IMG/VR virus record: IMGVR_UViG_3300047562_000529
Coordinates: 1 to 30,694 of that record
Length of the DNA: 30,694 nucleotides
Direction: 5' to 3' (one strand)
Source: a virus
This document shows positions 7,495-29,692 of this stretch, piece after piece. The first letter of the stretch is position 1; each line of letters opens with the position of its first letter. The translations under genes were made by a program, and so were the position numbers. The notes beneath the pieces are model-generated. The model did no database searches. It was given only the letters and a program-made list of their open reading frames with translations, and was not told the origin of the DNA.

Positions 7495-7495
7495 T

Positions 7496-10005: not shown

Positions 10006-10013
10006 ATATACAT

Positions 10014-10391: not shown

Positions 10392-10411
10392 TAATAGCAC
10401 TTTTTAAATGC

Positions 10412-10419
10412 CATAAATA
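10412..10419 (+). promoter_or_regulatory. Candidate T4-type late promoter before gene 6
   Basis: CATAAATA matches TATAAATA at 7 of 8 positions and lies in the 52-base gap between genes 25 and 6, the longest gap in the plus-strand operon. A transcript would begin near 10425 and give a leader of about 18 bases. The longer string ATAAATACTGAA (10413-10424) recurs at 27866-27877. Confidence 0.6.
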
Positions 10420-10443
10420 CTGAATAATAGGTATTAATTAAAT

Positions 10444-13400
10444 ATGGCTACTACTACACGACAAACCAGTTTATTAGTTCAGCAAGACTGGACTAAAATT
10501 TACCAGACATTCAAAGAAGCAAACTTCCAAAGTTTTGACTTTGAAACTATACGCAAGAGTATGATAGAATACTTGCGTACCTATTACCCAGAAGACTTCA
10601 ACGACTTTACAGAATCAAGCGAGTATGTCGCACTCATTGATTTGATTGCTTTCTTAGGACAGAGTTTAGCATTTAGAACAGACCTAAATGCACGTGAAAA
10701 TTTTATTGACACTGCTGAGCGTCGTGATAGCATATTAAAACTAGCCAAGTTAATCAGTTATAATCCTAAGCGTAATATCCCTGCGTCAGGTTTCTTAAAG
10801 TTTCAAAGTGTACTCACTACAGAAACAGTATTTGACAGCGAAGGTAATAACTTATCAAACACCATTGTTAACTGGAACGACAGTACTAACGAGAACTGGC
10901 TAGAACAGTTCACAGCAGTATTGAATTCGTCTTTGGTGCCCACACAGGCCATTGGCAAGCCAGGTGCTACTAAAACACTGAACGGTGTTAAGACAGATGA
11001 GTACGGTGTTAGAATGTTAACTAACATCATTCCAGTGCAGTCGTTTAACGTAAGTGTGTCGGGCATTGCTACACGATTTGAGATAGTAAGTGCTACAACT
11101 GCAAACTATGAATATGTATATGAGAATGAACCTCGTCCTAATGGTGCATTTAATTTCTTATATAGAAATGATAATCAGGGCAACGGGTCTAATAATACAG
11201 GATACTTCTTGTACTTTAAACAAGGAGAATTAAAGAATCTCGACTTTAAGGTCAGTGACAGTTTACCTAATCGTGTTGTTAGTGTTAACTTTAATAACAT
11301 CAACAACAATGATGTATGGTTATACAATTTAAACTCAGACGGAACTATTGACACAGAATGGACTAAAGTTCCAGCAGTAAACGGTATAAACGTAATATAT
11401 AACAACACTGCTGACAGAAACCTGTACAGTGTTAACACTAGAGCAAACGATCAAATTGATTTAGTATTTGGTGATGGTTCATTTACTAATATTCCTGCAG
11501 GCAATTTTAGATTGTTTTATAGAATTTCAAACAATTTAACTTATAAGATCACCCCCGAAGAGATGAGCAGTATAACTATAAACTTGCCATATCGTAGTCG
11601 TTCGGGACGCACAGAAACTTTAACAATCCGTGCAAGTTTAGAATATACAGTAACTAATGCTACTGCTAGAGAATCACTTGAAGAAATTAGAACTAAAGCA
11701 CCACAACAGTATTACACACAGAATAGAATGGTGTCTGGTGAAGATTATAACGTTTTACCTTACACAACATTTAGCACGATACTAAAAGCAAAGGCAGTTA
11801 ATAGATCTAGCAGTGGTATCAGCAGATACTTAGATGTGATTGACTCTACTGGAAAGTATTCTAGTACAAATATATTCTCTCAAGATGGTATGATATATCA
11901 AGAAGAAGTTAATAACTTAGCTCTTACTTTTCAATTTACCAGTAGTAGTCAGGTTAACAATATAGTACAGTCTACTTTACAAAAACTGATCTCAGATAGT
12001 GAAGTAAAACATTTATATTATAGAACAGCTACACGACAAACACCAACTGCTACTTGGACACAATTAAGTAACAGTACCGGAAGAAGTACAGGTACTTTTA
12101 ATTCGGATAGTTATATCTACTTAAGACAAGGTGCACTAGTTAAGTTTACTGCACCCACAGGAAAGTTTTTTAATGCACAAAATCAGCTAGTAACTGGAAC
12201 ACCCGAAACAGAGTTTCAAAAGACTGAACTATGGGCTAGTATCATAAGTTACCCTACTCCAGGTATCGGCAATGCTATTTTAAGTACAGTGATTCCAAGC
12301 ACTGCCGTAGTGTCACAAGTTATACCTGTGTTTGAGAATTCGTGGCCTACTTCGTTAGTAGATAATATTGTTGCAAACATTTTAAGTTACAAAGACTTTG
12401 CACTCAGATACGACGTTTCTGAAATGGAATGGAAGATTATCGATGAAGCAAATATTGGAACTGGTAATTTTAGTTTAACCTATGCCGGCAATACAACCGG
12501 TACTAGTTTAGACAACAGCTGGTTTGTTAAACTTTCCTTCAGCAACGAAGAATATGATGTAACAGTACGTGGTACAAAGTACTTCTTCGAAAGTGTGAGA
12601 GAAACACGTTTTTATTACGACCCAGATGCTAAAGTATACGATTCAAGAACGGCAACAACAAGATTAGACGAGATTAAAATTCTTAGAACTAATACTAAGC
12701 CCGACACCTCAGATAGTTTATTCTACAGCCAATCTTGGAGAATAGATAATCGTGTATTAGCAAATGATGGAATTGAAGATAATAGAAAAATTTTAGTTAC
12801 ATTCCCAGACGACAACCTAGACGGTGTGCCTGATAACCCGGATTTGTTTATAACATTTGTTGCACCAACAGTTAATCCAGAGAACAAGTATGTGTATTTT
12901 ATAAAGTCAGAGTCTGTAACCAGTTTCCTACAGTATGATCCAGTAGCTAGATCCACAGTTGTTTCTAGTTACGGAACAGAAAGCGACATACTAAACAATA
13001 TCACATTGTATGCAATAGATACTGTGTTTTACGCATACTCAGAAGATAAGTTTTATCAGTCTGACGGCTCAGCACTTACCCTGCTTACTAACTACATAGC
13101 AAGAGTAGGTAGAGAAAACATTATGTTCCAATACACACATAATAGTCCTAATAATAGAAGAATAGATCCAAGTCCAAATAATCTAATAGACTTATATCTA
13201 TTAACCAGAGAATATAGCGATGACTATACTTCATATATTACTGACACTTCTGGAACAGTAGTTGAACCCACTGCTCCTAGTAGCGAAGATCTAAGATTAG
13301 ATTACAGCACCATCGAAAACTTCAAAACTGTTAGTGATAGTTTAATATACAATGCGGCAAAGTTTAAACCATTGTTTGGTAGTAAAGCTGATCCAGCACT

Positions 13401-13734
13401 AAGGGCAACGTTTAAGGTCGTTAAAAATCCTAGTGTTAATACCAGTGATAACGAAATAAAGAGTTTAGTGATTACAGCAATTAACTCATACTTTGATATT
13501 AACAATTGGGACTTTGGAGAAACGTTCTACTTTAGTGAACTAAGTGCTTACTTACATAGCGAACTTACACCTAACATAAGTAGTATCATCATTGTCCCTA
13601 ACCAATCATCAAATAGTTTTGGAAACCTGTATCAGATTAATGCAGATGCAGATGAGATCATTGTTAGTGCGGCAACAGTTAGTGATGTACAAATTATTTC
13701 TGCTATTACAGCAGGACAACTTAATAGGGTATAG
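10444..13734 (+). CDS. 6: gp6-like baseplate wedge protein
   Basis: Major wedge protein whose dimers make the inner baseplate ring. The first 110 residues are diagnostic (QQDWTKIYQTFKEANFQSFD, then ESSEYVALIDLIAFLGQSLA, FRTDLNARENFIDTAERRDS). A Baseplate_J-like core lies at about 335-440, with the DLVFGDGSFTNIPAGNFRLFYR pattern and MVSGEDYNVLPYTTF. The C-terminal part ends with a gp6/J-type element (FSELSAYLHSELTPNISSII, IVPNQ). At 1096 residues it is larger than T4 gp6 (660). The extra length lies mostly between about 500 and 950, a region rich in beta strands with Asn/Ser/Thr. The ribosome site is weak (AATAGG, over 12 bases upstream). Confidence 0.9.
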   Translation: MATTTRQTSLLVQQDWTKIYQTFKEANFQSFDFETIRKSMIEYLRTYYPEDFNDFTESSEYVALIDLIAFLGQSLAFRTDLNARENFIDTAERRDSILKLAKLISYNPKRNIPASGFLKFQSVLTTETVFDSEGNNLSNTIVNWNDSTNENWLEQFTAVLNSSLVPTQAIGKPGATKTLNGVKTDEYGVRMLTNIIPVQSFNVSVSGIATRFEIVSATTANYEYVYENEPRPNGAFNFLYRNDNQGNGSNNTGYFLYFKQGELKNLDFKVSDSLPNRVVSVNFNNINNNDVWLYNLNSDGTIDTEWTKVPAVNGINVIYNNTADRNLYSVNTRANDQIDLVFGDGSFTNIPAGNFRLFYRISNNLTYKITPEEMSSITINLPYRSRSGRTETLTIRASLEYTVTNATARESLEEIRTKAPQQYYTQNRMVSGEDYNVLPYTTFSTILKAKAVNRSSSGISRYLDVIDSTGKYSSTNIFSQDGMIYQEEVNNLALTFQFTSSSQVNNIVQSTLQKLISDSEVKHLYYRTATRQTPTATWTQLSNSTGRSTGTFNSDSYIYLRQGALVKFTAPTGKFFNAQNQLVTGTPETEFQKTELWASIISYPTPGIGNAILSTVIPSTAVVSQVIPVFENSWPTSLVDNIVANILSYKDFALRYDVSEMEWKIIDEANIGTGNFSLTYAGNTTGTSLDNSWFVKLSFSNEEYDVTVRGTKYFFESVRETRFYYDPDAKVYDSRTATTRLDEIKILRTNTKPDTSDSLFYSQSWRIDNRVLANDGIEDNRKILVTFPDDNLDGVPDNPDLFITFVAPTVNPENKYVYFIKSESVTSFLQYDPVARSTVVSSYGTESDILNNITLYAIDTVFYAYSEDKFYQSDGSALTLLTNYIARVGRENIMFQYTHNSPNNRRIDPSPNNLIDLYLLTREYSDDYTSYITDTSGTVVEPTAPSSEDLRLDYSTIENFKTVSDSLIYNAAKFKPLFGSKADPALRATFKVVKNPSVNTSDNEIKSLVITAINSYFDINNWDFGETFYFSELSAYLHSELTPNISSIIIVPNQSSNSFGNLYQINADADEIIVSAATVSDVQIISAITAGQLNRV

Positions 13735-13745
13735 GAAGGTAACAC

Positions 13746-16700
13746 ATGGCAGTATTCAAAACGCATCAGTTTTTACCTGACATTTTTCAAACTGATACTA
13801 ATAAAAAGTTTTTAAATGCTACATTTGACCAACTGGTTAGCGAACCACAACTTAAAAAAGTTAATGGATTCATTGGTCGTAAGTTAGCACCTTCGTATAA
13901 AGCAAGTGATAGTTATATCTTAGAGCCAACCAGCAATAGAGAAAATTATCAACTTGAGCCTAGTATTGTTATTAAGGATAAGTTTGCTAAAAATATCGAC
14001 TTTGCAACTACCTATGTTGATACTATTAATAAAATTAAGTACTATGGCGGTCTAATAGACAATCACAATAGACTGTTTGATAATGAATTTTATTCGTACG
14101 ATCCTAAAATAGATTTAGACAAATTTGTAAACTTTAGTCAGTACTACTGGCTTAAAGAAGGTCCTGACCCGATACAGATTACTTCTAGTGGAGTTAGCAC
14201 TAGTCAGACCTTTACTGTAACATATAATCCTATTAATAACGCCTACGAGTTTTCAGGTAGTGAAAATGTACCTAATCCAAGTATCACCCTTGCAAGAGGC
14301 GGAGTATATGAATTTACTGTTAATAGTATTGGAAATAACTTTTATATTCAAGGGAAGCCAGGCAAGAATGGTATTGACCCTGATCTAAGCAACATCCAAA
14401 CTAGAGATGTTTTTGGCGTTTCAGACAACGGTACTGATTCAGGAACTGTAAAATTTACTGTACCAAAAGCTACAGCACAAGACAAATTTATTAATTTACC
14501 AACTGTTGAAACTGTTAGTTACGCAACCGATCTTGCATTTAATCAGGTGCAGGGTGCCAAGCCACAAGACGTAATAGACAGTTACGGCGGGATTGACGGA
14601 CCTATCGCATACTTAGATGGTGCTACTATAGTGTTTGTGAATCGCGAATACATCGACGATACTTTTTGGGTAGATACTGTTAGAACAGAAAACGGAATAG
14701 TTTATTTTGATCAGAGCAACCAAATTGCTCTTGCTGATCGTACAAACGTTTATACTATCAGCATCCAAGTTGATTCAGACGGTAACGACAGAATTGTTTT
14801 ATTGTCTAAGATTGCTGTCCCTGAAGATCATAAAGTAAAGATTAAAGGTGGAGCATCTTATACTAGTAAAGAAGCATTTGTTCGAGATAGTGCATATGAA
14901 CTAGTGCCTTACATATCGGCGCCGTTTGATGTTTTATATTACCAAAGTGACACAGATAGTGATGCTGTTGGAATTATTAATATCATTGAACCAATATCCA
15001 ATGACGTTGACCCTGCTGTGGATATTGTTGGGGAATTATATTACACTAGTCCAAATGGTATAGTTCTAACAAACGGAATGAAAATATATTTTGATTCTAG
15101 TGTGCCTGCATCATGGCAGAACAAATACTATTACGTCGAAGGTGTAGGAACAGGTATTCGGTTAGTACCAGAATCTGAATTGATCAGCATAGAAACTATT
15201 AATGATAGTTTTGTAATTAGCGGTGGACTAGGATATGTTGTAGACGATAGACTTACTATTCAAGGCGGTACCTACGAGCGACAAGCAGTCGCAGTTGTTG
15301 ATGCTATCACTCCAAACACAGCAACATTTTCTGTTGCTATCAACACCATTACTGGTGTAGTAACTGGAGTCACTATTGTTAACGGCGGCGCCGGATATTT
15401 AACTGCTCCTACACTCACATTTACTAGTCCTGCAAGTGGTAGTTCTGCCACAGCATCAGCAACTATTACTGCAGGTGTGGTTACATCAGTAACACTTACT
15501 AGCGGCGGAAACGGATACGAAGCGCCCCCAATACTTACAGCAACTGACCCAGAGTCTGGCGCTATAAAAAGTTTTAAAATTAAAGATCTTGGTGATTATA
15601 CAGTACTACCTACTAATCCAGTTGATGTAACTGGCGGCTCTGGCGCAAGTGCGAGATTAGAAGTTTACCTTCAACCTGAGTACCCAGATTATATTACTAT
15701 AAACAGATCTAGTTTGGATAGAAATCCATGGAGTCGAGGAAATCGCTGGGTTCATAGAGATGTTATAGAAAAAACAGCGGTATATAATAATTCTACATTA
15801 ACATTCAACCAATCTAATCGTGCAAGCAGACCAATCATTGAGTTTGAAGCAGATTATCATTTGCACAACTTTGGTGCAGTAGCAAAACTACCTATTGACA
15901 TATTAGATGATACTGTTGAAAGAGCCTTCCAAGAAGTTCAAGGTAAGATTTGTATTGATACTACTACATTTGCAGTTCACAATGAGTTAACATTGACTCA
16001 TGGTGATAGAGTTGTTTTTGCTCGAGATCTTGACAATACCGTTAGAAACAAAATATACAATTTTACGATTGAGAAAGCTGTTGACGAACCTGCTGATGTT
16101 TACAAAGCATATTTGGTAGAAGCAGATGATGCTACTGTAGAAGAAAACAATACAGTGTTGGCTCTCTCAGGTAGACTCGGCGGACAGCAATATCATTACA
16201 ATGGAACAACATGGGTAACTTCGCAGGCTAAAACAGCTAGAAATCAAGAACCTTTATACGACATAGTTGATGACCAAGGTATTAGTTTTGCAAATGGAAC
16301 TACCTACACAGGGACAACATTTACAGGTACTAAAATATTCTCATACAAAAGAGGATCAGGTAACAATGACATCGAGTTAGGATTTCCGTTAAGTTATAAA
16401 AACTTTGCTAATCAAGGTGATATTGAATTTGAAAATAACTTTGATGCGCAGGTTTTTTCATATCTTGCAGGAAGTACCACTTTAATAACAGAACATAAGA
16501 TAAATTCAGGTTACTTACAAAAGAATATAACAACAACTACCTGTACAAGAGAAAACATTTGGAAGATTGCTAGAACATTTAGTAAACAATTTAAGATATA
16601 TGACTTTGTTTATGACGGAGTTACTAACTTATTCCCAATTGATAGTTTGCCCGATGTAAGCACAAACTTCCCACATATTAAAGTTTATGTTAATAATAAA

Positions 16701-19700
16701 ATTTTAACTTCGGGTAATTTTGCAACTACACAGGTTGTAGATAGATTTGCAATATTGGTCAACCCAGATCTGATAGTAAAAGATGATGTTGTATTTGTTG
16801 CAGTGTTTAACGAAGATATTCCTTTAGGAGACAATGCACATTACGAAATACCTATTAACTTAGATATTAATACTCTAAATAAAAATCATTCAACACTAAC
16901 CTTAGGTCAAATGCGTAACCATTTGATATCATTGAAAAATAATGGCCTAAATGTTGTTGGTAGTGTACCAGGTAACAGTAACTTACGAGATATAGTTTAT
17001 AAGAACACCTGCGGTAGTATTCTTCAACATAGTGCACCTGCGGTTTATTCAGGTCTATTCTTAAATCACCCAACAATGAATTTTGTAAACGCTATTAAGT
17101 TAGCAAACAGAGAGTATACAAAATTTAAGCATAGATTTTTAGAGATCGCTGGAAAGACCGACCTTGACTTTACAAATGTTCAAGATAGTTTTGAAACTAT
17201 CCTTACATCAATGCATTCAGTTAAGAATGATAGTTTCCCTTGGTACCATAGCGATATGATACCTCATGGAACTACTACTAGAACCTTATTACCAACATTT
17301 ACTGTTATTGACCCTGACCTGGTAACATTTGAATTAACAACAGTATTCAATGATAAAGTACCAAGCAACAAAGCAGTTCTAGTTTATGTAACAAGAACAA
17401 TTGACAATGTAACTAGCAAGACACTTGCAGTTAAAGGTAGAGACTATACATTCAATACAGATCGTGCCGCACTAACATTTACAAGCAATTTTAGATTGTT
17501 ATTTAACGATAAGATTGATATTGTTGAATACAGCGACACCGACGGAAGTTTTGTTCCTGAAACTCCAACTAAGATGGGTATGTACCCTAAGTTTGTTCCT
17601 GAAAAATATTTGGACAATACGCTACGTACACCAGTGTACATGATACAAGGACACGACGGTAGTTTAACACCAGCATTTAACGATTTTAGAGACGATTTAA
17701 TACTAGAACTTGAGCGTAGAATTTACAATAATATTAAAATTGATTACAATATTAATACTTTTGATCTTATTGATTATATGCCGGGTAAGTTTAGAGACAA
17801 TGACTACACAAGAGCAGAATTTAACCAAGTATTAAGCCAAGGCTTTCTAGCCTGGGTTGGTACTAATCGTTTAGATTTCTCAACCACCAAATATTTTAGG
17901 AGTAGTGATCCATTTACGTGGAACTTTAAGTTAATGACTGATGTTGTTAACGGTGAAAGTTTGCCAGGTACGTGGAGAGCTTGTCATCGTTATTTTTACG
18001 ACACAGATCGACCACATACACATCCCTGGGAGATGTTGGGCTTTAGTGAAAAGCCAGACTACTGGCAAGATCGTTATGGACCAGCTCCATATACCGGCGG
18101 AAATAGTGTACTATGGTCAGACCTGAGTGTAGGTTATATTCACGGTGGTGATCGTGCAGGTTTCGATTTACGCTATCAAAGACCAAACCTGTCAGACTTT
18201 ATTCCGGTTGACGACAATGGAAATTTACGTAGTCCTGAACAGATATTAACAGCAGACTTTGATGGGGATAAGGCTAATGTCAGTTATGCTGTTGGAGATA
18301 TAGGTCCAGTTGAATTAGCCTGGCGTCGTAGTAGTGAATATCCGTTTGCTGTGATGTTGGCGTTAGCACTAACTAAGCCAGCACGTTTCTTTGCACTTCA
18401 GGCAAATGTACACAGATATAATAGAAATCTGTTTACTGGACAATTTGAAATTAACGAAACAGGTCAGCATCTCACCCCTAGAGCAATCCAAGTTAATGGA
18501 TATGTAAACAGTGATGGCACTGTTCAAAGAACTGCTGGTTATGTGAACTGGATTAAAGACTATATTAAAAATTTAGGGGTAAGTGATGCGTCTGGCGTCA
18601 TAATTGATAACCTGTCAAGATTAAATGTACAACTTACATATAAAGTTGGAGGATTTACAGATAAAAAGTTTGTTGAGCTATTGGCTGAACAGAGTAGTCC
18701 TAGTAGTATTAATAATAGTGTTGTGATTCCCGATGAAAATTACAGAATACAAATGTACAAAGGATCACCTATTAGGAAAATTACTTATAGTGCTGTTATA
18801 GTTCAAAAGAGTGCTAGAGGATATACAGTAAGTGGTTACGATTTAACCAACCCATACTTCTTTATTATTCCTAGTATACCTAATAATAATGCATACGCAA
18901 TCACCGAAAACGATCAGAGAGTTGTTATCTATAGAGACTTTAGAAAAGTAAAATATACAGTACCATACGGGTTTGAATTTAATACCGTACAACAGGTAGC
19001 AGACTTTTTAGTAAGTTATCAGAGATACCTAAATAGTCAAGGATTTGTATTTACAGATAGGGACAATGATTTAGGAACTCAGAAAGATTGGGTATTAAGT
19101 GTACGAGAATTTTTGCATTGGAGCATCCAAGGATGGCGAAACAATAATATTATTGCACTAAGCCCAGTTAACAATGTTTTAAAAGTTTATGAACCTACAG
19201 CAGTGGTTGACGAAATAAAAAATACTCCGTTCAACAGCAGGGTATTAGATGTAAATTTTGAGCCTATTATTAAGAATGATTTTACTGTTTATCGAGAAAG
19301 TAATCTGTTTACACTACAATCAAACAGCGGTCAAACTGTGGGATTCGCAGAACTTGATTTAGTTCAGTACGAACATCTACTAGCATTGGATAACGTCACT
19401 GTGTTTAATGATGTGATTTATGTTCCAGAATTGGGTAATAGGCAATATAGACTTAAATTTGTTGGTCACAAGACAGATGCTTGGAACGGTAGTTTAGAAT
19501 TGCCTGGCTTTATGTTCTCCAGTGACTCAGTTGATTCTTGGTCTGCAGGATCTGATTATCTTAAAGGTACTATTGTACAGCACAAGAATCGATACTATAC
19601 AGCATTAGAAAATATAACTGCGGCAACAGATTTCCAAACACTTAAATGGAAACAGATTGAAAAATCAGAATTGCGTAGTGGAATGGTAAGAAACTATGCT

Positions 19701-22700
19701 TCTAATGCCAAACTTGGTGAGTACCTCTATAATATAGATAATCAACCAGATAACGAAGATTTACAATTATTCAGCAATGGCCTAATAGGTTTTAGAGAAC
19801 GAGATTATTTTACAAATCTTGGAATAGATGTTACTACACAGTCTAAGTACTATCAGGGATTGATAACACAAAAAGGTACACCTAATTCTATAAACGCATT
19901 AGAAGCTGGGGTCTTTGGCAATCTAGCATCTGACATAGATTGGTATGAAGACTGGGCAGTGCGTGTTGGAGAGTATGGTGCACTAGAAACAACTACATTT
20001 GTAGAGACTGTACTAGATGAAACAAAAATCAATAGTAATCCAACAACTGCACAGTTCACTGACAGCAATAGTCCGGCACAAAATGGTGTAGTAGAACTTA
20101 CGGTTGACGATGTTTATAAAATTTCAGATGAATATACTTCAAATGTTTTCAGAACTGAAAACCGTGCTGAATCAAGTAAATTACGTCCGTTGCCTGTTGC
20201 TGGTTTTGTAAACTTGTCAGACATTGACACAACATTGTTTAGTTTATCAAACTATCAATCATTATCTTCTCTGACAGATAGCATTGGTACAGGGTACAAA
20301 ATTTGGGTCGCAAAAGATTTCAATGACACCTGGAACGTATACAGAGCAAGCTATATCGATGGATCTGTATTTGTGATGCGACATCGCAATGAGGGAACTG
20401 TTGAAGTTGTCTTTAGTGCTAACCACGGGTTGGCTGTAAATGATGTTGTAGTTATAAAAAGTTTTGATGATAGATTTGATGGTGTATACAAAGTAGACAG
20501 TATTGTAGATTCCACTAGATTTAATATTACAGTTACACAGAATATAGAGGATCTGAAGAAAGAAGCAGTAGTTGTAGCAACTGGTATACTATACAACCTA
20601 ACAAGTGCTAAGATAGATAAGCCAGCAGATATACAATCTGTTATGCCAGTAACTGGTTGGAAAGAAAATGATAAAGTCTGGGTTGAAAATTTAGACAGCG
20701 AAGGTAATTGGGGAGTTTACAATAAGACTAGCCCTTGGGTGTACAATAGTAAAGCAGAATTAGACGGTAGTAAATTATCAGGCAATGATAACTTTGGAAC
20801 TACTGTTAGTATAGAACCTAATCTTGCACAATTGATGTATGTAGGATCACCAGGATCCGGAAGCGGAAGAGTTAACTCATTTGTAAGATCAAGTACAAAT
20901 GCTTGGACTCCGTCGTTTGCATTAGGAGCAAGCAGTACCGGACTAGACAGTTTCGGGGACAAAGTTGTTAATGCTGAGGGATATGTAGCAGTCAGTGCGC
21001 CAGATAGTTCAAGCGGAAAAGGTTATGTTTATGTCTTTAAGGATGGTATACTACAACAAATTATTACAGATTCTTCTGCTTCTCCTAACGACAATTTTGG
21101 TTCAAGTTTAGCAATAAGTAGAGATGCACTATATCTATATGTAGGTGCGAGTGGTGCTGACAAAGTATTTTGTTATCAACTAAAAACAAGAACAGCACTC
21201 GATCCTTATAGCTTACCAGTAGAAAGATACGAATTGACTCTTGACGCAAATGTAACGTTTGCAGTTGGCGATACTGTTACATATCAGAGTCCAGGAACAA
21301 CAACAACAGCCAGCGGTACTGTAGTTTTTGATAGCACCAGACCAGCTAATACAAGTGTTGTTATAGTTACAGGTAATATAGCGGCGTTCAGCGAGACAGA
21401 ATTGATAGCAGTTAACGGTGCTAACGTTGCGGCTAATATTGTATCAACAGTACAGTCTGCGGCTATATCAACATTTAGTAACGTATCTATTCTCTCAAGC
21501 GATCCAACTGAAGTTTTAGTATACTCACAGTTACGTGCGGCAGAATACGTGCCTACAGTAGAATATACAGTCAGTGGAGAAGATATTACATTTACATCAC
21601 CTCCAGCCGTAACTGAAGTTATACAGGTTATAAAACGTAGCAATTATTATACAAAGATTAGTGAGATCAGCGGAAACGCAAGTACTAACTTTGGTTCAAG
21701 TTTAGGTACAAATAGAGATGGTAGTGTTGTTGCTATTGGAAGTGATAAAGCAATCGTCAATAGTTATAGCAATGAAGGTTTAGTTTATGTTTACCATAGA
21801 ACAATCACCGAACTAGTTACTGACGGTGTGTCATCCACGTTTACAGCACCTGATGCATTTGGTACTGACTACAGAGTTTTACTCGATGGAGAAGTAATTG
21901 TTGAAGGTGGTGATTTCTTTACTATTGCTCCAAGTAGCGTACAGTTTCCATCTGCTCCTACGGCAGGTTTAACTCTCAGAGTTGAAACAAACAACTTTGT
22001 ACAAGATCAAATTATTACTCCAAGTCAGACCGGAGTAAACGGACAACGTTTTGGTACAGATGTTGCAGTCTGCGGAACAGGCTGTAACATATATTCAACG
22101 GCTCCATTATACTTTAAAGATATGTATTCATCAGGAGCAGTTTACAGATTAGTAAACGTTGGTAGACTATACGGTAATGTTACTGGTACTGTGAGCAATC
22201 CAACTGTTACAGTTGGCCAAAGTATCATAATCAATAACAGACCTGTAGAGTTTACAGGAACTTCATTGACTACAGTAATTAATAATATTAACGGAAAAAA
22301 TATTCCGGGTGTAACTGCTAGTAATGTAGATAATAAATTACATATCTCATCAGATGTTCAAGTCGCTACAGAAAAATTAAACATCAAACCTGGTAGCACT
22401 GGTACAGCCTTAACTGACTTAGGAATTCAACTTTACAAACACGTACAAGCAATTAGTCACCCTAATCAAATAGGAGAGAAGTTTGGTACTTCTATAGGTA
22501 TCAGTCAAGGCAGTGGTAAACTAGCTGTCGCAAGTGATGGGGCAGATATTACGGTACCTACTACTTTTGATAAGGACACCAACGAAACAATCTTTGACAG
22601 TTTATCAACATCATTTGTGAAAATTATAAAAGATTCTGGCGCAGTGTATATGTACGATCTAATGCCTAACCCTTTTGAGTCTGAAGAAAACCCAGCGGTA

Positions 22701-25700
22701 TTTACTTTCAGTCAAAAGTTAATAGCGGCTGATGTACAAACAGGATATAACTTTGGTGCAGATATCGACTTAGTCAATGACATTATGGTTATTGGCGTTA
22801 CAAACGATTCTAGTGTTGTTTTGGGTGGCGGTAGTGCTTATAGTTACTATAATGCAAACAGTAAGCCGGGCTGGGATTTAATTAGATATAAAGAACCAAG
22901 AGTTGCTATAGACAGCGTCAATTCAGCATTTATCTACAATAAAAAAACAAGTACTATCTTAAATTATTTAGATATCCTAGATCCTGTAAAAGGAAAATTA
23001 CTCGGGGTAGTTGAACAAGAATTAGATTATATTGAAGAATTTGATCCAGCATCATACAATACTGGTACTATAAGTGACATCATTGTTAATAACTCTTTCT
23101 ACTGGACCTCAAAACAGGTCGGTAAGACCTGGTGGGACACTGGCGTAATCAGGTTTATTGATTACGAACAAGATTCGTTAGTGTATAGAGGAAAGAACTG
23201 GGGCGGTTTGTTCCCAGGTAGCTCTGTTAGAATTTATGAATGGGTAGAAAGTGATTTTCTACCTAGTCAATATGTTGCAAACGGTGGAGACGGTATACCT
23301 AAATATGCTGACGATACAGCGTTTACACAAACAACTACAGTTGATCCTGCAACCGGTGTTATAATTAATAAATTCTATTTTTGGGTCAGCAACAAAGAAG
23401 GTGTAGATGCTAATTTAGCCAAGAGAAATTTAAGTATTTCGTTATTAGAAAGATATATTTCTAATCCTAAGGATCAAGGTATTCCTTATATTGGATTAAC
23501 ATCGCCAAGCAGTATCAATTTATACAATATCAATGATAAAACAGTTGGCCAGGATATTATACTTCATTTAGATACTTCTAAGATTAACAGTAGCAGTTTA
23601 ATTCACAATGAGTTTGAATTAATACAACAAGGAAATGCTAACAGTTTGGTACCTAAGAGAATCTTAGACAAACTGAGAGATAGCCTTAGGGGTGCTGATG
23701 CAAATGGAAGAGTAGTTCCTGACACGTTACTTAAACCACAAGATAGAATTGGTATATTGAACAGACCTCGTCAAGGTATTTTCGTTGACCGATTAAAAGC
23801 ATTAGAAGTTTATGTTAAGGAAGCAAATAAAATATTAATTAAGTATCCAGTACTTTTAATATCAAATCCTACAAGTTTATATCTTAAAGAAGACTTTCCT
23901 GCAGTCTACGATGCTGAAGTTGCATCCTTTACTGATGTTGAATATTTAGATACAACAGATTTTGCTGACGGTTATAAGATTCTTATTCCTGAGGACAGTC
24001 GTTATAACAATCGCTGGTCTCTATTAGAGTTCAACGGGGTGACTAGACAGTTTGAATTAATACGTGCGCAGAGTTTTAAAACTGATCTTTTATGGACGCC
24101 AAAAGATTGGTATGATAGTAGTTATATAGTAGGCAACGATATACATCATACTGTTAACACTTATGGTGATATTCAAACACAAACATTAAGCACTAATGAC
24201 TATATTAAGATACTTGATGATGGAGCAGGTCATTGGGCAATATACCGTTATGAAAGTACAGGACAACTTTTGTTAATTGCTTCGCAGTCTGCTACTATAG
24301 AGTTGAGTAGATCTTTATTTGATGCAACTACTGGTGTAGGCTTTGATACTTCTGTATTCGATGCTACTCCTTGGGACAATCAGGCCGGAACAGAAACAGC
24401 AAACATTTTTAACAGTATTGCTAATCAAATTTTTATTAACAGTCTTGCTATTGAATTTAATAACTTATTCTTTGCATTAGTTAATTATATATTCGAAGAA
24501 CAGAAGAATCCAGACTGGATTTTCAAAACAAGTTTCATTGACGTACTACACAATTTACGCTCACTTGAACAAATACCTAACTACAGCAGAGATAATCAAA
24601 ACTTCTATGAAGATTATATCAATGAAATCAAACCGTATAGAACCCAGTTACGTGAATTCATCCCTACATACAATAAACTAGATGAAGCTACCGGTAATTG
24701 GACAGATTTTGATATCCCGTCTCGTTGGTTCGCTGATGAAAATAGATTTAGAGCTCCAAATATTCAATTAAGCTCAGACAGTACACATTTCACTACTGAT
24801 TTGTATTCACCGTATTCAGACAACTATAAATTTAAGATTGGTGAAATTATTGTTGGAAATGCTGGTGTAAGATATACAACTATTCCTGCTGTAGAAATTA
24901 CAGGAGGTGGTGGATCAGGTGCTGAAGCACGAGCAGTAATTAATCCAGGACAAGGCACTGTTACTAGTATAACCGTTACCAAACCAGGATCGGGATATAC
25001 AAGTAATCCTACAATAACAATCAATGGAGTTGGTGAAGGTGCAACAGCTTATGCACTTTTAAATAACGAATACGACAGCGCAGGCAGTTATAACACTGTA
25101 CGCTCAATCAACAGCACAATTAAGTTTGATAGGATAACCTACACAAGTAATGTAACCCAATGGCAGGCTAATACTGCTTATCCAAATACTATAATTGCTG
25201 ACGGTAATAAAGCGAATGCTTATGATTTAAACAGAGTAGAATACAACTCTTATGTAGGTGTAGGTAGTCAAGACATAGATGTAACTGATGTGGTCTTCAA
25301 ACCTGATGGCACAAAGATGTATGTTTCAGGAAATAATACTGATACAATTTACGAATATACCCTAAGTACTCCTTGGGAAGTTAGTACAGCAAGTAATGTT
25401 GCTATCGCAAATGTTTATACTCAAGATTCTAGTGTACAAGGTTTGTTCTTTAGAGACGACGGTGAGCGTATGTATACTGTTGGTATTAATACTGACAGCG
25501 TTTATGAATATAGACTTGCTACACCGTGGAGTGTAAACACAGCCGCTAATATTTCAGTTAAGAGTATCGTAAGTGAAGAAGCAAGTGCTCGTGCTGTTGA
25601 GTTTGATAAACTTGGTACACGTATGTACATACTAGGTACCCTGGGTGACACTGTTTACGAGTATGAGCTAAGTCAACCTTGGAAAATAAGTTCAGCAAGT

Positions 25701-27854
25701 TACAGCTCACGTAGTCTATATGTTGGCGGCGAAGATAATATTCCAACAGGTATGCGATTCAAACACGACGGTACAGAGTTGTTTATTGTTGGCCAGCAGA
25801 CTAACAAAGTATGGAAGTATGCATTGTCTACACCTTGGGATGTTAGCACTGGTTCAGTAGTTGGTGATCATCTATTAGACACAACACAACCAACTGGAAT
25901 TGCTTTTAAAGGAGATGGCACACAACTTTTCGTTGCTGATCCTAGTAGCGATTGGGTACAGCAGTATAACTTTAGTAGTGATGGTATTGTTCCGATTGAA
26001 GGTAATGTTTATATTACTAGCGGTAACATTATATTCTATAACAATACAGCATACTTGGCAACTAATGCTAATGTAAGTTCGCAAACTGTATTTGACTTTA
26101 CACGTTATACAGAAATTAACAGTGGCAACGCACTATTAAGCGCCGCTGACAGAATTACCAGTTACTATGTGCCAAGCGAAGGTCGCCCAGCAAAAGACTT
26201 AGATCAGTTAATGTTTGGTGTAAACTATCCTGGCAATAAAGTACAAGGAAAAACATTTACAGCAAATAGTTTCTCGTTAACAAGTAATGTAATTGGATTT
26301 AGTTATACTGGACACAAAATCACCAGTGCTAATATACAGCAGGTTGACTTCATTGACAGTGGATTCAACCTAAATGATCCAATTCAAATCCAAGGTCAAT
26401 ATAACTTTAATTTTGAAAACAATGCTACATTTAGAGTTGTAAGTTTAACACGTGATGAGATGATGCTGTCAGGACAACCAATTGAAAGCGTTGTTACACT
26501 ATTCTTAGGCGCAAACATCACTGCCAACGAAGGCGATTACATTACGCAATCTAACTCAACTGCTAACGCCAGAGTGCTACACAACTACACCAGTTCAGCT
26601 AACATTTCTGTTATACAAGAAAAGTACGGTTGGACTGAAATGGACTCTAATGTTGTTAGCGTTAATGGTGTTGTTACAACTGCTAATGTCAGAGACGTAT
26701 TAAGCACAGGTACTGCTAACGTTAAGATTAATAATTTATACATTGACGATTTATTGGATAGTAATATTGTAAGTTTCTACACAGACACAGCAATTGGTAC
26801 AAGACCAGAAGATATTAACATTGTTGGTGGTTTCTACTTAGATGCTTACAACAGTCACGCACCAGAAGAACTTGTTCCTGGCAGAATGTTTGACGCACTT
26901 GAAATGCGTGTGTTTACCAACACAGCATCAAACACTGCAAGTTATGGATTTAGAGTATTTGAACCAATGAGTGGTGACAGACGTTACTACAGAATTAATG
27001 CTAACAGCTCAACGACACTTAGTGCTAACTTGTCTATAGGCGATGTGAACTTGTTTGTTGATGATGCAAGTGTACTGCCAGATCCAGGTGCCGCAGTTGG
27101 TATCCCAGGTGAAGTATTCATTAACGGTGAACTTATTCACTACTATCAGAAATACGATGCCGCTAAGATCCTTACAGCAAGTGTATGGACAGCAAACACA
27201 GAATTTGCTACAGATAGTTTGATCACATTTGATAGCAACGTGTTCTTGGTACTAGGCAATGTATATGCTAATAGTACAAGTTATATTGATACAACAAACA
27301 TTAAGCAAGTTTATGTTAACTCACTATCACAACTACGTCGTGGTGTTGATGGAACTGGTAGTGCTAATGTACACACAGCAAATACTCGTGTAGTTGATAG
27401 CTCATTGGCACAGATACTACCAAATATTGTACCAACAACTACAACAACGCTAACAGGTGAAAAAACTGTAACTGCTAATGTAACATGGCGTATAGGATTA
27501 AGCAAAACTATCAGTGCAAACATTGGTGACTATATGACAATGACCAGCCCTGCCGCTAATGTAAGAATACTGGACACAGTTGCTAATGCTAATGTGGTAG
27601 CAGTACACTTTGTCAGTGGTAACTTAACAATCGGAAGCACTGCTAACGTACTAATTAACGGCACTGCAACACAGGCTAATGTCGCAACAATGCAGATATT
27701 AGGTGCAGTTGAAAGCGACGGAAATGTCAGCGTTACTGGCAAGATAATTAAACAAGACTACTTGTGGAAACCATATGGCACTGGTGATACACTAGAGTCT
27801 AGCACTACAGAATGGGCTACCTGGATTAAAGATGAGAGGAGTTATACTCCATGA
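13746..27854 (+). CDS. 7: Giant gp7-like baseplate wedge protein with inserted beta-propellers (4702 aa)
   Basis: The N-terminus (FKTHQFLPDIFQTDTNKKFL, then NGFIGRKLAPSY) matches gp7 of marine T4-like phages; gp7 links the wedge core to the peripheral baseplate. T4 gp7 is 1032 residues, so this protein is heavily expanded. Visible modules: a beta domain near 178-255 (GVYEFTVNSIGNNFYIQGKPG); GGxGY repeats at 493-600; gp7-like central part with WYHSDMIPHG and the YMIQGHDGSLTPAFNDFRDD motif; seven FG-centred propeller motifs at 2350-3003; GGxGY-type repeats at 3706-3760; five tandem repeats of about 50 residues at 3845-4080; and a GD-type module at 2508, 4263 and 4594. The C-terminus is rich in Ala-Asn-Val. 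No frameshift or stop interrupts it. ATG is preceded by AGGAAGG. Its TGA overlaps the gp8 ATG (ATGA). Confidence 0.88.
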   Translation: MAVFKTHQFLPDIFQTDTNKKFLNATFDQLVSEPQLKKVNGFIGRKLAPSYKASDSYILEPTSNRENYQLEPSIVIKDKFAKNIDFATTYVDTINKIKYYGGLIDNHNRLFDNEFYSYDPKIDLDKFVNFSQYYWLKEGPDPIQITSSGVSTSQTFTVTYNPINNAYEFSGSENVPNPSITLARGGVYEFTVNSIGNNFYIQGKPGKNGIDPDLSNIQTRDVFGVSDNGTDSGTVKFTVPKATAQDKFINLPTVETVSYATDLAFNQVQGAKPQDVIDSYGGIDGPIAYLDGATIVFVNREYIDDTFWVDTVRTENGIVYFDQSNQIALADRTNVYTISIQVDSDGNDRIVLLSKIAVPEDHKVKIKGGASYTSKEAFVRDSAYELVPYISAPFDVLYYQSDTDSDAVGIINIIEPISNDVDPAVDIVGELYYTSPNGIVLTNGMKIYFDSSVPASWQNKYYYVEGVGTGIRLVPESELISIETINDSFVISGGLGYVVDDRLTIQGGTYERQAVAVVDAITPNTATFSVAINTITGVVTGVTIVNGGAGYLTAPTLTFTSPASGSSATASATITAGVVTSVTLTSGGNGYEAPPILTATDPESGAIKSFKIKDLGDYTVLPTNPVDVTGGSGASARLEVYLQPEYPDYITINRSSLDRNPWSRGNRWVHRDVIEKTAVYNNSTLTFNQSNRASRPIIEFEADYHLHNFGAVAKLPIDILDDTVERAFQEVQGKICIDTTTFAVHNELTLTHGDRVVFARDLDNTVRNKIYNFTIEKAVDEPADVYKAYLVEADDATVEENNTVLALSGRLGGQQYHYNGTTWVTSQAKTARNQEPLYDIVDDQGISFANGTTYTGTTFTGTKIFSYKRGSGNNDIELGFPLSYKNFANQGDIEFENNFDAQVFSYLAGSTTLITEHKINSGYLQKNITTTTCTRENIWKIARTFSKQFKIYDFVYDGVTNLFPIDSLPDVSTNFPHIKVYVNNKILTSGNFATTQVVDRFAILVNPDLIVKDDVVFVAVFNEDIPLGDNAHYEIPINLDINTLNKNHSTLTLGQMRNHLISLKNNGLNVVGSVPGNSNLRDIVYKNTCGSILQHSAPAVYSGLFLNHPTMNFVNAIKLANREYTKFKHRFLEIAGKTDLDFTNVQDSFETILTSMHSVKNDSFPWYHSDMIPHGTTTRTLLPTFTVIDPDLVTFELTTVFNDKVPSNKAVLVYVTRTIDNVTSKTLAVKGRDYTFNTDRAALTFTSNFRLLFNDKIDIVEYSDTDGSFVPETPTKMGMYPKFVPEKYLDNTLRTPVYMIQGHDGSLTPAFNDFRDDLILELERRIYNNIKIDYNINTFDLIDYMPGKFRDNDYTRAEFNQVLSQGFLAWVGTNRLDFSTTKYFRSSDPFTWNFKLMTDVVNGESLPGTWRACHRYFYDTDRPHTHPWEMLGFSEKPDYWQDRYGPAPYTGGNSVLWSDLSVGYIHGGDRAGFDLRYQRPNLSDFIPVDDNGNLRSPEQILTADFDGDKANVSYAVGDIGPVELAWRRSSEYPFAVMLALALTKPARFFALQANVHRYNRNLFTGQFEINETGQHLTPRAIQVNGYVNSDGTVQRTAGYVNWIKDYIKNLGVSDASGVIIDNLSRLNVQLTYKVGGFTDKKFVELLAEQSSPSSINNSVVIPDENYRIQMYKGSPIRKITYSAVIVQKSARGYTVSGYDLTNPYFFIIPSIPNNNAYAITENDQRVVIYRDFRKVKYTVPYGFEFNTVQQVADFLVSYQRYLNSQGFVFTDRDNDLGTQKDWVLSVREFLHWSIQGWRNNNIIALSPVNNVLKVYEPTAVVDEIKNTPFNSRVLDVNFEPIIKNDFTVYRESNLFTLQSNSGQTVGFAELDLVQYEHLLALDNVTVFNDVIYVPELGNRQYRLKFVGHKTDAWNGSLELPGFMFSSDSVDSWSAGSDYLKGTIVQHKNRYYTALENITAATDFQTLKWKQIEKSELRSGMVRNYASNAKLGEYLYNIDNQPDNEDLQLFSNGLIGFRERDYFTNLGIDVTTQSKYYQGLITQKGTPNSINALEAGVFGNLASDIDWYEDWAVRVGEYGALETTTFVETVLDETKINSNPTTAQFTDSNSPAQNGVVELTVDDVYKISDEYTSNVFRTENRAESSKLRPLPVAGFVNLSDIDTTLFSLSNYQSLSSLTDSIGTGYKIWVAKDFNDTWNVYRASYIDGSVFVMRHRNEGTVEVVFSANHGLAVNDVVVIKSFDDRFDGVYKVDSIVDSTRFNITVTQNIEDLKKEAVVVATGILYNLTSAKIDKPADIQSVMPVTGWKENDKVWVENLDSEGNWGVYNKTSPWVYNSKAELDGSKLSGNDNFGTTVSIEPNLAQLMYVGSPGSGSGRVNSFVRSSTNAWTPSFALGASSTGLDSFGDKVVNAEGYVAVSAPDSSSGKGYVYVFKDGILQQIITDSSASPNDNFGSSLAISRDALYLYVGASGADKVFCYQLKTRTALDPYSLPVERYELTLDANVTFAVGDTVTYQSPGTTTTASGTVVFDSTRPANTSVVIVTGNIAAFSETELIAVNGANVAANIVSTVQSAAISTFSNVSILSSDPTEVLVYSQLRAAEYVPTVEYTVSGEDITFTSPPAVTEVIQVIKRSNYYTKISEISGNASTNFGSSLGTNRDGSVVAIGSDKAIVNSYSNEGLVYVYHRTITELVTDGVSSTFTAPDAFGTDYRVLLDGEVIVEGGDFFTIAPSSVQFPSAPTAGLTLRVETNNFVQDQIITPSQTGVNGQRFGTDVAVCGTGCNIYSTAPLYFKDMYSSGAVYRLVNVGRLYGNVTGTVSNPTVTVGQSIIINNRPVEFTGTSLTTVINNINGKNIPGVTASNVDNKLHISSDVQVATEKLNIKPGSTGTALTDLGIQLYKHVQAISHPNQIGEKFGTSIGISQGSGKLAVASDGADITVPTTFDKDTNETIFDSLSTSFVKIIKDSGAVYMYDLMPNPFESEENPAVFTFSQKLIAADVQTGYNFGADIDLVNDIMVIGVTNDSSVVLGGGSAYSYYNANSKPGWDLIRYKEPRVAIDSVNSAFIYNKKTSTILNYLDILDPVKGKLLGVVEQELDYIEEFDPASYNTGTISDIIVNNSFYWTSKQVGKTWWDTGVIRFIDYEQDSLVYRGKNWGGLFPGSSVRIYEWVESDFLPSQYVANGGDGIPKYADDTAFTQTTTVDPATGVIINKFYFWVSNKEGVDANLAKRNLSISLLERYISNPKDQGIPYIGLTSPSSINLYNINDKTVGQDIILHLDTSKINSSSLIHNEFELIQQGNANSLVPKRILDKLRDSLRGADANGRVVPDTLLKPQDRIGILNRPRQGIFVDRLKALEVYVKEANKILIKYPVLLISNPTSLYLKEDFPAVYDAEVASFTDVEYLDTTDFADGYKILIPEDSRYNNRWSLLEFNGVTRQFELIRAQSFKTDLLWTPKDWYDSSYIVGNDIHHTVNTYGDIQTQTLSTNDYIKILDDGAGHWAIYRYESTGQLLLIASQSATIELSRSLFDATTGVGFDTSVFDATPWDNQAGTETANIFNSIANQIFINSLAIEFNNLFFALVNYIFEEQKNPDWIFKTSFIDVLHNLRSLEQIPNYSRDNQNFYEDYINEIKPYRTQLREFIPTYNKLDEATGNWTDFDIPSRWFADENRFRAPNIQLSSDSTHFTTDLYSPYSDNYKFKIGEIIVGNAGVRYTTIPAVEITGGGGSGAEARAVINPGQGTVTSITVTKPGSGYTSNPTITINGVGEGATAYALLNNEYDSAGSYNTVRSINSTIKFDRITYTSNVTQWQANTAYPNTIIADGNKANAYDLNRVEYNSYVGVGSQDIDVTDVVFKPDGTKMYVSGNNTDTIYEYTLSTPWEVSTASNVAIANVYTQDSSVQGLFFRDDGERMYTVGINTDSVYEYRLATPWSVNTAANISVKSIVSEEASARAVEFDKLGTRMYILGTLGDTVYEYELSQPWKISSASYSSRSLYVGGEDNIPTGMRFKHDGTELFIVGQQTNKVWKYALSTPWDVSTGSVVGDHLLDTTQPTGIAFKGDGTQLFVADPSSDWVQQYNFSSDGIVPIEGNVYITSGNIIFYNNTAYLATNANVSSQTVFDFTRYTEINSGNALLSAADRITSYYVPSEGRPAKDLDQLMFGVNYPGNKVQGKTFTANSFSLTSNVIGFSYTGHKITSANIQQVDFIDSGFNLNDPIQIQGQYNFNFENNATFRVVSLTRDEMMLSGQPIESVVTLFLGANITANEGDYITQSNSTANARVLHNYTSSANISVIQEKYGWTEMDSNVVSVNGVVTTANVRDVLSTGTANVKINNLYIDDLLDSNIVSFYTDTAIGTRPEDINIVGGFYLDAYNSHAPEELVPGRMFDALEMRVFTNTASNTASYGFRVFEPMSGDRRYYRINANSSTTLSANLSIGDVNLFVDDASVLPDPGAAVGIPGEVFINGELIHYYQKYDAAKILTASVWTANTEFATDSLITFDSNVFLVLGNVYANSTSYIDTTNIKQVYVNSLSQLRRGVDGTGSANVHTANTRVVDSSLAQILPNIVPTTTTTLTGEKTVTANVTWRIGLSKTISANIGDYMTMTSPAANVRILDTVANANVVAVHFVSGNLTIGSTANVLINGTATQANVATMQILGAVESDGNVSVTGKIIKQDYLWKPYGTGDTLESSTTEWATWIKDERSYTP
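20787..22860 (+). repeat. Seven FG-GAP-like propeller motifs inside gp7
   Basis: A phenylalanine-glycine motif, typically N-F-G-(S/T)-x-(V/L/I) followed by about 10 residues and a strand such as YVAVSAP or LYVGASG, occurs seven times. The Phe is at gp7 residues 2350, 2403, 2451, 2649, 2769, 2913 and 3003. Seven copies fit a complete FG-GAP (integrin-alpha-like) seven-bladed propeller. Spacing is about 50 residues for the first three and then widens to 90-200, so other domains appear inserted between later blades. Confidence 0.7.
25278..25985 (+). repeat. Five tandem ~50-residue propeller repeats inside gp7
   Basis: Each unit follows a pattern of hydrophobic strand, F-K-x-D-G-T-x-M-Y-V-x-G, a T/D-D-x-V-Y-E-Y stretch and L-S-T-P-W-x-V-S-T-A-S. 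Units start near gp7 residues 3845 (VVFKPDGTKMYVSG), 3899 (LFFRDDGERMYTVG), 3950, 4002 and 4050; the last is degenerate (IAFKGDGTQLFVAD). The pattern is that of bacterial and phage beta-propeller repeats of the NHL/YVTN-like kind, expected to bind partners or sugars at the particle surface. Confidence 0.75.
27834..27841 (+). promoter_or_regulatory. Ribosome binding site for gp8
   Basis: GAGAGGAG lies 9 bases before the ATG at 27851, inside the end of gene 7. It supports the upstream start over a second in-frame ATG at 27896, which has only a weak GGAA upstream. Confidence 0.75.
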
Positions 27855-28558
27855 TAAATTCCCAGATAAATACTGAAGATACGGAAAATACTAATATGCA
27901 AACTCTACCTGAACAATCAGATCTTGAACGCAAACCAGATGAACAAAGTGGTTTACACGTACAAGGTCATATTAAAATCTTTGACCCAGAGTCTGGGGAA
28001 GTATTCATTGACAAGCGCAATGCTATTCACTATGAAAACATCAGTGAAGCGATAGCATACAGTCTTGCCAACAAAGGACAAAGTTACATTTACGAAATGC
28101 ACTTTGGTAATGGTGGTACAAGTGTTGACCCAACCGGGGTTATTAACTACTTGCCATCAAATACTAATACCAGCAACAGTAACTTGTACAATCCAACCTT
28201 TGCTAAAATTGTAGATAATACCAGCACACTAAACGCTGATCCTACACGTAACAAAATGGAAATTAGACATACACCTGGTAGAGTGTATACAGACATCGTT
28301 ATAAGTTGCCTATTAGATTACGGTGAGCCCACAGGACAAAGCGCATTTGATAACTCAACGGCCCTTGATGACACATATACTTTTGATGAGCTTGGACTTA
28401 AAGCACGTAGTACAGACGGAACAAGTGGATTAGCAACAACAGGTAAGTTACTAACACACGTTGTATTCCACCCTGTACAAAAATCATTGAACAGATTAAT
28501 TCAGGTTGATTACACAGTTAGAATACAGACATTAACTAACTTAACCAGTCAATTGTAA
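27851..28558 (+). CDS. 8: gp8-like baseplate wedge protein
   Basis: A 235-residue protein resembling the gp8 assigned in marine T4-like phages; T4 gp8 (334 aa) bridges gp7 and gp10 in the wedge. Recognisable segments are GHIKIFDPESGEVFIDKRNA (about 39-58), IYEMHFGNGGTSVDPTGVIN (about 80-98), VISCLLDYGEPTGQSAFDN, and the end THVVFHPVQKSLNRLIQVDY. The first 35 residues are polar and probably flexible; a second Met at residue 16 (27896) could be an alternative start. The ATG overlaps the gene 7 stop (ATGA) with a strong ribosome site. Identity to T4 gp8 is not obvious by eye, so the name rests on marine relatives and position. Confidence 0.7.
   Translation: MINSQINTEDTENTNMQTLPEQSDLERKPDEQSGLHVQGHIKIFDPESGEVFIDKRNAIHYENISEAIAYSLANKGQSYIYEMHFGNGGTSVDPTGVINYLPSNTNTSNSNLYNPTFAKIVDNTSTLNADPTRNKMEIRHTPGRVYTDIVISCLLDYGEPTGQSAFDNSTALDDTYTFDELGLKARSTDGTSGLATTGKLLTHVVFHPVQKSLNRLIQVDYTVRIQTLTNLTSQL
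27866..27877 (+). promoter_or_regulatory. Possible internal late promoter at the start of gp8
   Basis: ATAAATACTGAA is identical to 10413-10424 before gene 6, and GATAAATA (27865-27872) matches the late consensus at 7 of 8. It would drive gp8 from the second ATG (27896) and the downstream fibre genes, but it lies inside coding sequence and may be chance. Confidence 0.3.
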
Positions 28559-28570
28559 GGGTAGAGGGTT

Positions 28571-29692
28571 ATGGCATATTACGTAAACAAAACAGATGGA
28601 ACAGCAATTATTGTACTAGATGGTACTAAAGATATTACCAGTACAAGCCTAACACTCTTTGGTCGTCTTGCCCAAAACTACGGCGATGCTACTAACGAAA
28701 ATTTCTTACATCTATTAGAAAATTTTGCCCTGAGTACAAGTCCTGCGAACCCAATCAAAGGACAACTTTGGTTTGATACTAGCGTTAACAATTTAAAACA
28801 TTATGATGGTTCCAATTGGGTTACTGTAGGTACAAATATTGCAGGAAACGTAGATGTTGCTGGTAACTTAACCGTTGGTGGTGGTGGCAATCTAGAAATT
28901 AAAGAATTAAGTGGGTTAGTGCATATTACTAACACAAACAACAATGGTAACATTGCATTCTTTGCTAACGTAGGCGGAACATATACCAATGTATTAAACA
29001 TACAAGGCAATACAGGATTAGTAACTGTAGCGGCAAATGCCACAGCAGAACTAGGTGTTACCCCTAAACTGCAAGTTGACAGTATTGATGCAAAAAATAG
29101 ATACGATGCTTATGTTGCAATGACAGCCAACGTAGCAACAATTAATGCTAACCTTACAGCAAGAGTTAATGCAGAAACACAACTTACAGCAGACATTACA
29201 GCGGCCAACGTTGAAATAGACACAACACAGGCCAACATTGGTTCGTATCAAACATTCTCAAACGCAAGAGCAGATACAACTAGTGCTAATTTAGGCACAG
29301 TGGTAGGAACAACTATTCCTAACTTAGACGCTAATGTTGGTAGTTTCCAAACATACGCAAACGCAAGCATTAGTGCAATTAATGCTAATGTTACTGGTGC
29401 TAATACAAGTATTAGTACATTGTCTAGTAGACTCGACAGTGTTAACCTAGCACAAACAGCGGCATTATCGGCCAATGTAAATTTAAAAGCAGACATTGCT
29501 TCTCCAACATTTACAGGAACACCTGTCGCACCAACACCAGCTTTTGGCGCAAATACAACACAAGTTGCTACAGCTCAATATGTAATGACACGCAGTGTAT
29601 TTTGGGACGGTAGTAGAAAGTTTGTTTCAACTAGTGACCCAACAGCCAGTGACGGCAACGATGGAGACATCTGGTTTAAATATACCCCATGA
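28571..29692 (+). CDS. Tail-fibre-like structural protein (373 aa)
   Basis: Probable trimeric fibre attached to the baseplate. Residues 1-90 form an N-terminal baseplate-binding domain seen in marine T4-like phages (MAYYVNKTDGTAIIVLDGTK, TLFGRLAQNYGDATNENFLH, NPIKGQLWFDTSVNNLKHYDG). Residues about 95-170 are a beta region (GNLTVGGGGNLEI). Residues about 175-300 are heptad-like and rich in Ala, Asn, Thr and Val (ARVNAETQLTADITAANVEI), suggesting a trimeric coiled coil. Then comes the phage-fibre motif ADIASPTFTGTPVAPTPAFG followed by TQVATAQYVM, and a GDIWFKY end. It begins 12 bases after gp8 with AGAGGG upstream and ends in ATGA overlap with the adhesin-like gene. The T4 gp9-gp12 equivalents are not seen; this may replace one. 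Confidence 0.75.
   Translation: MAYYVNKTDGTAIIVLDGTKDITSTSLTLFGRLAQNYGDATNENFLHLLENFALSTSPANPIKGQLWFDTSVNNLKHYDGSNWVTVGTNIAGNVDVAGNLTVGGGGNLEIKELSGLVHITNTNNNGNIAFFANVGGTYTNVLNIQGNTGLVTVAANATAELGVTPKLQVDSIDAKNRYDAYVAMTANVATINANLTARVNAETQLTADITAANVEIDTTQANIGSYQTFSNARADTTSANLGTVVGTTIPNLDANVGSFQTYANASISAINANVTGANTSISTLSSRLDSVNLAQTAALSANVNLKADIASPTFTGTPVAPTPAFGANTTQVATAQYVMTRSVFWDGSRKFVSTSDPTASDGNDGDIWFKYTP

Follow-up and report, generated by a model that had tools for sequence, protein, structure and literature searches.

The giant reading frame of the window encodes a member of phrog_10938, a family of proteins in which a constant core, consisting of an N-terminal anchor, core 1 and core 2, alternates with variable slots. 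The window, by which we mean the whole stretch of DNA analysed here (30,694 bases), is an entire virus record, and the record may be a fragment. The protein follows directly on the baseplate wedge gene gp6, the place held by gp7 in T4, and our comparisons indicate that it is gp7 by position only, not by sequence. We think it fairly probable that it is the gp7-position virion protein of a contractile-tailed phage, that its scaffold assembles with the gp6/gp25 wedge and that its slots carry exchangeable modules for host contact or docking. The scaffold role is the best supported part of this reading and rests on gene order, conservation and the presence of relatives in virions; the modules, for their part, may serve in host recognition. 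The features are collected in Table 1.

Table 1 Positions of the giant reading frame, its parts and the neighbouring features in the window (ranges of length are those among 17 aligned family members).
Feature	Position	Strand	Basis or remark
Late sigma factor	2496-3413	-	
gp53-like baseplate wedge protein	4432-4737	+	phrog_7145, E=1.5e-27
Baseplate hub/tail lysozyme family protein	7496-9019	+	phrog_13211, E=3e-36
gp25 homologue, baseplate wedge	10014-10391	+	PF04965, 40.7 bits
Late-promoter-like 12-mer ATAAATACTGAA	10413-10424	+	ahead of gp6
gp6 homologue, baseplate wedge, 1,096 aa	10444-13734	+	phrog_10646, 1022 bits; HHalign 91.6% to T4-type gp6
Shine-Dalgarno-like AGGAAGG	13733-13739	+	upstream of the giant ATG, overlaps the gp6 stop
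Giant ORF, 4,702 aa, ~520 kDa, phrog_10938 member	13746-27854	+	ORF list; profile match, 1127 bits
N-terminal anchor, aa 1-140	13746-14165	+	conserved in all family members; 139-166 aa
N slot, aa 141-650	14166-15695	+	510 aa here; 13-548 aa
Core 1, conserved scaffold, aa 651-2200	15696-20345	+	1,481-1,948 aa
Weak CBM5/12-like (chitin-binding-type) segment, aa 1932-1961	19539-19628	+	Pfam E=0.01, below cut-off
Family-invariant KG motif region, aa 2015-2090	19788-20015	+	resembles gp7 KG in register, non-significant
Middle slot, exchangeable, aa 2201-3050	20346-22895	+	79-1,305 aa
FG-GAP beta-propeller, seven FG-type motifs, aa 2348-3032	20787-22841	+	Pfam, motif count
Core 2, conserved scaffold, aa 3051-3700	22896-24845	+	own gene in one lineage; 565-769 aa
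Glycine-rich repeat, aa 3698-3791	24837-25118	+	common to cyanophage giant proteins and phrog_460 members
C-terminal slot/tail, variable, aa 3701-4702	24846-27851	+	42-1,279 aa
YVTN/lactonase-like beta-propeller, five recognisable blades, aa ~3846-4080	25281-25985	+	Pfam, predicted fold
12-mer ATAAATACTGAA, identical to that ahead of gp6	27866-27877	+	directly after the giant ORF
Separate tail-fibre-type gene, after the giant ORF	28571-29692		

The frame opens with an ATG 11 nt after the end of gp6 and runs for 14.1 kb with zero internal stops, taking up 46% of the record, almost half of the window as the preliminary description had stated; its computed mass of 519,963 Da likewise agrees with the figure of more than 500 kDa given there. 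Eight complete close relatives (L009, L010, L012, L013, L018, L019, L024 and L025) carry the gene as a single frame of 4,716-4,720 aa with the same architecture. In comparisons with three relatives, against which synonymous sites are mostly saturated, pN/pS is 0.17-0.48 in all seven regions of the ORF. Because every region gives such values and eight relatives keep the gene in one frame, the ORF is real, with coding constraint over its full length: the whole of it is a genuine gene under purifying selection. An artefact, in which an assembly join or a missed frameshift fused several genes, could appeal to the one lineage that has two genes at this locus; the eight relatives of nearly equal length, many further relatives with one frame and the purifying selection in each region rule it out for all practical purposes. 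A broken giant frame was seen once, in L189, a near relative of L181, where the stretch 6530-21055 is interrupted in core 1 and leaves frames 6530-11977 and 12302-21055; this single case is likely a sequencing or assembly error.

A profile search matches the protein to phrog_10938 with 1,127 bits over four stretches, and tblastn finds the family in about 60 cultured jumbo-phage records, with N-anchor, core 1 and core 2 matched. Named members are RaK2 gp465, CBB_236, Atu_ph07 gp180, PA5oct gp355 and XacN1 ORF325, and the lengths range widely (RaK2 3,326, CBB 3,340, PA5oct 3,857, SCTP-2 3,807, Vibrio 2.275.O 3,771, Atu_ph07 4,449, Phosso 4,555, XacN1 3,313 and RAS14 3,138 aa). The largest relatives reach 5,212 aa in a complete member and at least 5,789 aa in one truncated by the end of its contig. 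At the post-gp6 locus of jumbo phages, a protein of giant size is known and usual, and the window member is not the largest. The cultured members, 3.1-4.6 kaa long, share with it a homologous N-anchor, core 1 and core 2 and, SCTP-2 excepted, the place after gp25 and gp6. What sets the window protein apart is its two propellers, FG-GAP in the middle slot and YVTN/lactonase-like in the tail; the scan of cultured members turned up no FG-GAP.

Members of the family are found in virions. CBB_236 is represented by 21 peptides in mass spectrometry of the virion (PMC5259590), and the record of PA5oct gp355 carries a note of virion detection by ESI-MS/MS. In phAPEC6, gp245 (382 kDa) yields 17 virion peptides and adjoins a 131-kDa wedge protein (PMC7247149); its gene order and size suggest that it is probably the orthologue of the giant. 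The closest large relative of the window protein, L009, sits on a 221-kb contig, so the source of the window is probably a jumbo phage too. A scan of metagenomic viral contigs with the PA5oct core returned zero matches, a PDB sequence search of the giant gave no significant match and an NCBIfam search gave none. In the RefSeq record of K64-1 (NC_027399.1), 16 hypothetical proteins are listed at the match; RaK2, though closely similar, has a single gene there, and the difference is probably a matter of annotation.

An alignment of 17 diverse members shows how these lengths arise. The N-anchor and the two cores are near-constant, and length variation falls mostly in the three slots, whose borders, in the most distant members, depend on the alignment to within some tens to hundreds of residues. 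The protein is thus a constant core with variable slots. The preliminary description had pictured modules spliced into a gp7 core, of which the first half stands, propellers lying between and after conserved core segments, and the second does not, the core giving no match to T4 gp7 above noise. Our search of the open-access literature, which was incomplete, found no published account of how the slots are arranged, of the FG-GAP module or of the fission described below.

The propellers that had been noticed in the translation are real: two exceed their Pfam cut-offs and contain repeated motifs. The middle slot scores 38 bits to PF14312 (FG-GAP_2) within the whole protein and 51.4 bits as a segment alone, against a cut-off of 23, and FG-GAP is over the Pfam cut-off in 12 of the 12 FG-GAP-type members scanned, the window included. 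Elsewhere in the family the same slot is filled differently: L028 has a YHYH domain (E=3e-29), in L163 it spans about 240 aa and gives no Pfam match, and in RaK2, CBB, XacN1 and RAS14 the slot measures about 80-115 aa. An insertion within the FG-GAP propeller (aa ~2810-2880; 22173-22385) looks Flagellin_IN-like by eye, and Flagellin_IN is over the Pfam cut-off within the propeller of L203. In the tail, the second propeller scores 26.1 bits to PF10282 (lactonase; cut-off 21.7), with five motifs spaced by about 51 aa (aa 3851-4054) and a predicted propeller fold that Foldseek matches to propellers with E=1.4e-10. The chitin-binding-like segment of the window does not reach its cut-off (16.3 bits vs 26.2), and its local fold matches to chitin-binding domains are weak. 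CBM5/12-type domains occur in the C-terminal part of several relatives and are over the cut-off in L038 and L031.

One lineage divides the giant into two genes. In L161, L162, L169 and L174, the first gene ends about 130 aa into the middle slot, and after the stop and a gap of about 20 nt follows the ATG of a second gene, about 20 aa before core 2. The layout of stop, 20-nt gap and ATG is identical among these contigs. In L162 the genes lie at 6455-13276 and 13297-17103; the second is ~1,268 aa long in three contigs, and in L161 it leaves the contig end soon after its start. Since L162, L169 and L174 are nearly identical, we count this as one lineage seen repeatedly, not as four independent events. 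The lineage is about 47% identical to L028 over core 1, and in a core-1 tree made by a quick method it groups with L028 and L163/L167 inside the FG-GAP clade, with group support 100. Nested as they are within a clade that bears FG-GAP, both the loss or replacement of the propeller and the gene fission look derived. The middle slot is thus a boundary between two units that are still side by side, and the two genes show a natural fission at a module boundary, not an error in the window. Whether relatives split the frame had been raised as a question beforehand: the close ones do not, and one distant lineage does, at the FG-GAP slot.

Apart from SCTP-2, the cultured relatives inspected share with the window the order gp25-gp6-giant. 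In all 46 sequences compared, the window plus 45 metagenomic loci, the end of a gp6-sized frame lies between -8 and +62 nt from the giant. On the other side, the next gene belongs to phrog_11259, and a profile search of the window for gp8 gave no match downstream of the giant ORF. In SCTP-2, no recognisable gp6 was found beside the giant gene. There, another giant of 3,096 aa (L004, 4612-13902) precedes it and contains, twice, a 64-aa stretch that resembles part of gp6; sequence comparison rejected this upstream protein as gp6.

Two copies of the 12-mer ATAAATACTGAA bracket gp6 and the giant. The motif resembles a T4-type late promoter, and the window also encodes a late sigma factor. ATAAATAC-type motifs stand at the corresponding places in the relatives L009, L013 and L018, and GGATAAATACAT is found just ahead of the second gene in the split lineage. 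Late promoters of the form TATAAATA number 0 in the whole window, against 4.5 copies expected by chance.

Position suggests gp7, and the N terminus had been called clearly gp7-like, a label that the comparisons do not uphold. Against 29 gp7 sequences, HHalign gives the family profile a probability of 0.2% at best, no better than the reversed-profile control, and as a positive control it recovers gp6 across the same distance at 91.6%. Profiles of the whole protein, the N-anchor, core 1, core 2 and the KG region were each compared with T4-type and cyanophage gp7, and none reached significance. A gp7 profile that picks up T4 and the cyanophage giants gives no match in the window or in any of eight large related records, where no second gp7 was found; the profile includes one cyanophage row, and T4-type profiles alone still find the cyanophage giants. 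Searches with T4 gp8-gp12 and gp53 gave no match to the giant. Tail_P2_I (PF09684) was dropped as a test for gp7 because it misses T4 gp7 itself and is therefore uninformative. For core 1, the predicted structure is poor (mean pLDDT 52); gp7 is absent from its Foldseek list and, because confidence is low, its PDB matches are left unused, save for the short chitin-binding-like stretch. As with T4 gp7, a baseplate wedge protein of 1,032 aa, the locus of the window giant is after gp6 and the protein is a presumed wedge component. Unlike T4 gp7, it has no detectable sequence homology to that family, a conserved core (~2.3 kaa) more than twice as long and no recognised gp8 downstream, and its 4,702 aa compare with 1,026-1,167 aa in the gp7 set.

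The post-gp6 giants of cyanophages differ in this respect. These proteins (ACG-2014b 6,422 aa, S-SRM01 3,895 aa) have the post-gp6 locus and glycine-rich repeats in common with the window giant, and they contain the KG segment of gp7 and do not match the core of phrog_10938; by sequence, they are a real example of gp7 enlargement, to 3.9-6.4 kaa. In L075 (573-19841) and L077 (from 22054), cyanophage proteins of ~6.4 kaa lie right after gp6 with the T4 gp7 KG segment at aa ~689-723, and appear to be hugely expanded gp7 that carries no annotation beyond 'virion structural protein'. VrlC of pelagi- and cyanomyophages is described as an apparent replacement of T4 gp7 (PMC7029224). It offers a precedent for gp7 replacement and is a different protein from the window giant.

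We consider it unlikely that the giant is a true, extremely diverged homologue of T4 gp7 that has kept its KG helix region at aa ~2040, with the remainder of the protein expanded around that remnant. Such an origin would agree with the locus directly after gp6 and with the eight large records that have no second gp7-like gene, and growth of gp7 to 4-6 kaa has a precedent, since gp7 sequence is present in the giants that cyanophages encode at this locus (HHalign 78.9-96%). The KG motif itself is invariant in the 17 family members and in register with its counterpart in the gp7 of T4 and of cyanophages. However, the best scores stay at the level of the reversed-profile control, and the KG alignment, at P=0.002 with the region chosen beforehand, is non-significant over the whole protein. 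The resemblance is a lead.

In the favoured reading of a gp7-position wedge scaffold with exchangeable modules, the N-anchor, core 1 and core 2 (~2.3 kaa together) would contact and assemble with the gp6/gp25 wedge, probably as one copy per wedge and hence six per baseplate, with core 1 and core 2 acting together as two units. Fixed slots would hold the FG-GAP propeller between the cores, the YVTN/lactonase-like propeller in the tail and the weak chitin-binding-like segment, and the most likely role of these modules would be contact with glycans or proteins of the host surface, or the docking of fibres. As opposed to this, the giant could be a fibre-like or adhesin protein encoded beside gp6 and lying outside the wedge scaffold, with the propellers as receptor-binding heads. 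Its variable adhesion-type modules (FG-GAP, YHYH, CBM5/12) and its lack of homology to a known wedge protein are compatible with an adhesin, but the large core is well conserved, its place beside gp6 hardly varies, the window has a distinct gene of tail-fibre type further on, and the translation gave no noticeable sign of a collagen-like or coiled-coil shaft, which makes an adhesin distinctly improbable.

Beta-propellers can be purely structural, and a variant that overlaps with the favoured reading, and that we rate as possible, keeps the giant in the wedge and takes its propellers as structural spacers or platforms for docking fibres. Host-range modules are often hypervariable. The FG-GAP propeller is not: it is stable in the close clade and conserved about like the core (pN/pS 0.23 vs 0.20 between the window and L009), which would also allow a structural or fibre-docking role. 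Against this stands the replacement or loss of the module between lineages that conserve the core, which would be odd for an obligatory part.

Jumbo-phage annotations usually give the largest proteins no label beyond 'virion structural protein' or 'hypothetical'. For one such protein, the comparison gives a constant scaffold, defined slots, a natural split point that yields expressible halves and, as a testable idea, exchangeable surface modules on the baseplate wedge itself, and it corrects the tempting label of gp7, which the sequence does not support. We tentatively propose that the jumbo-phage wedge has an evolutionarily open cartridge slot in its central scaffold, occupied by an integrin-type FG-GAP propeller, by YHYH or by no module, or marked by a split of the gene. 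If this is true, receptor-binding or docking modules would therefore be borne by the wedge itself and not by fibres alone.
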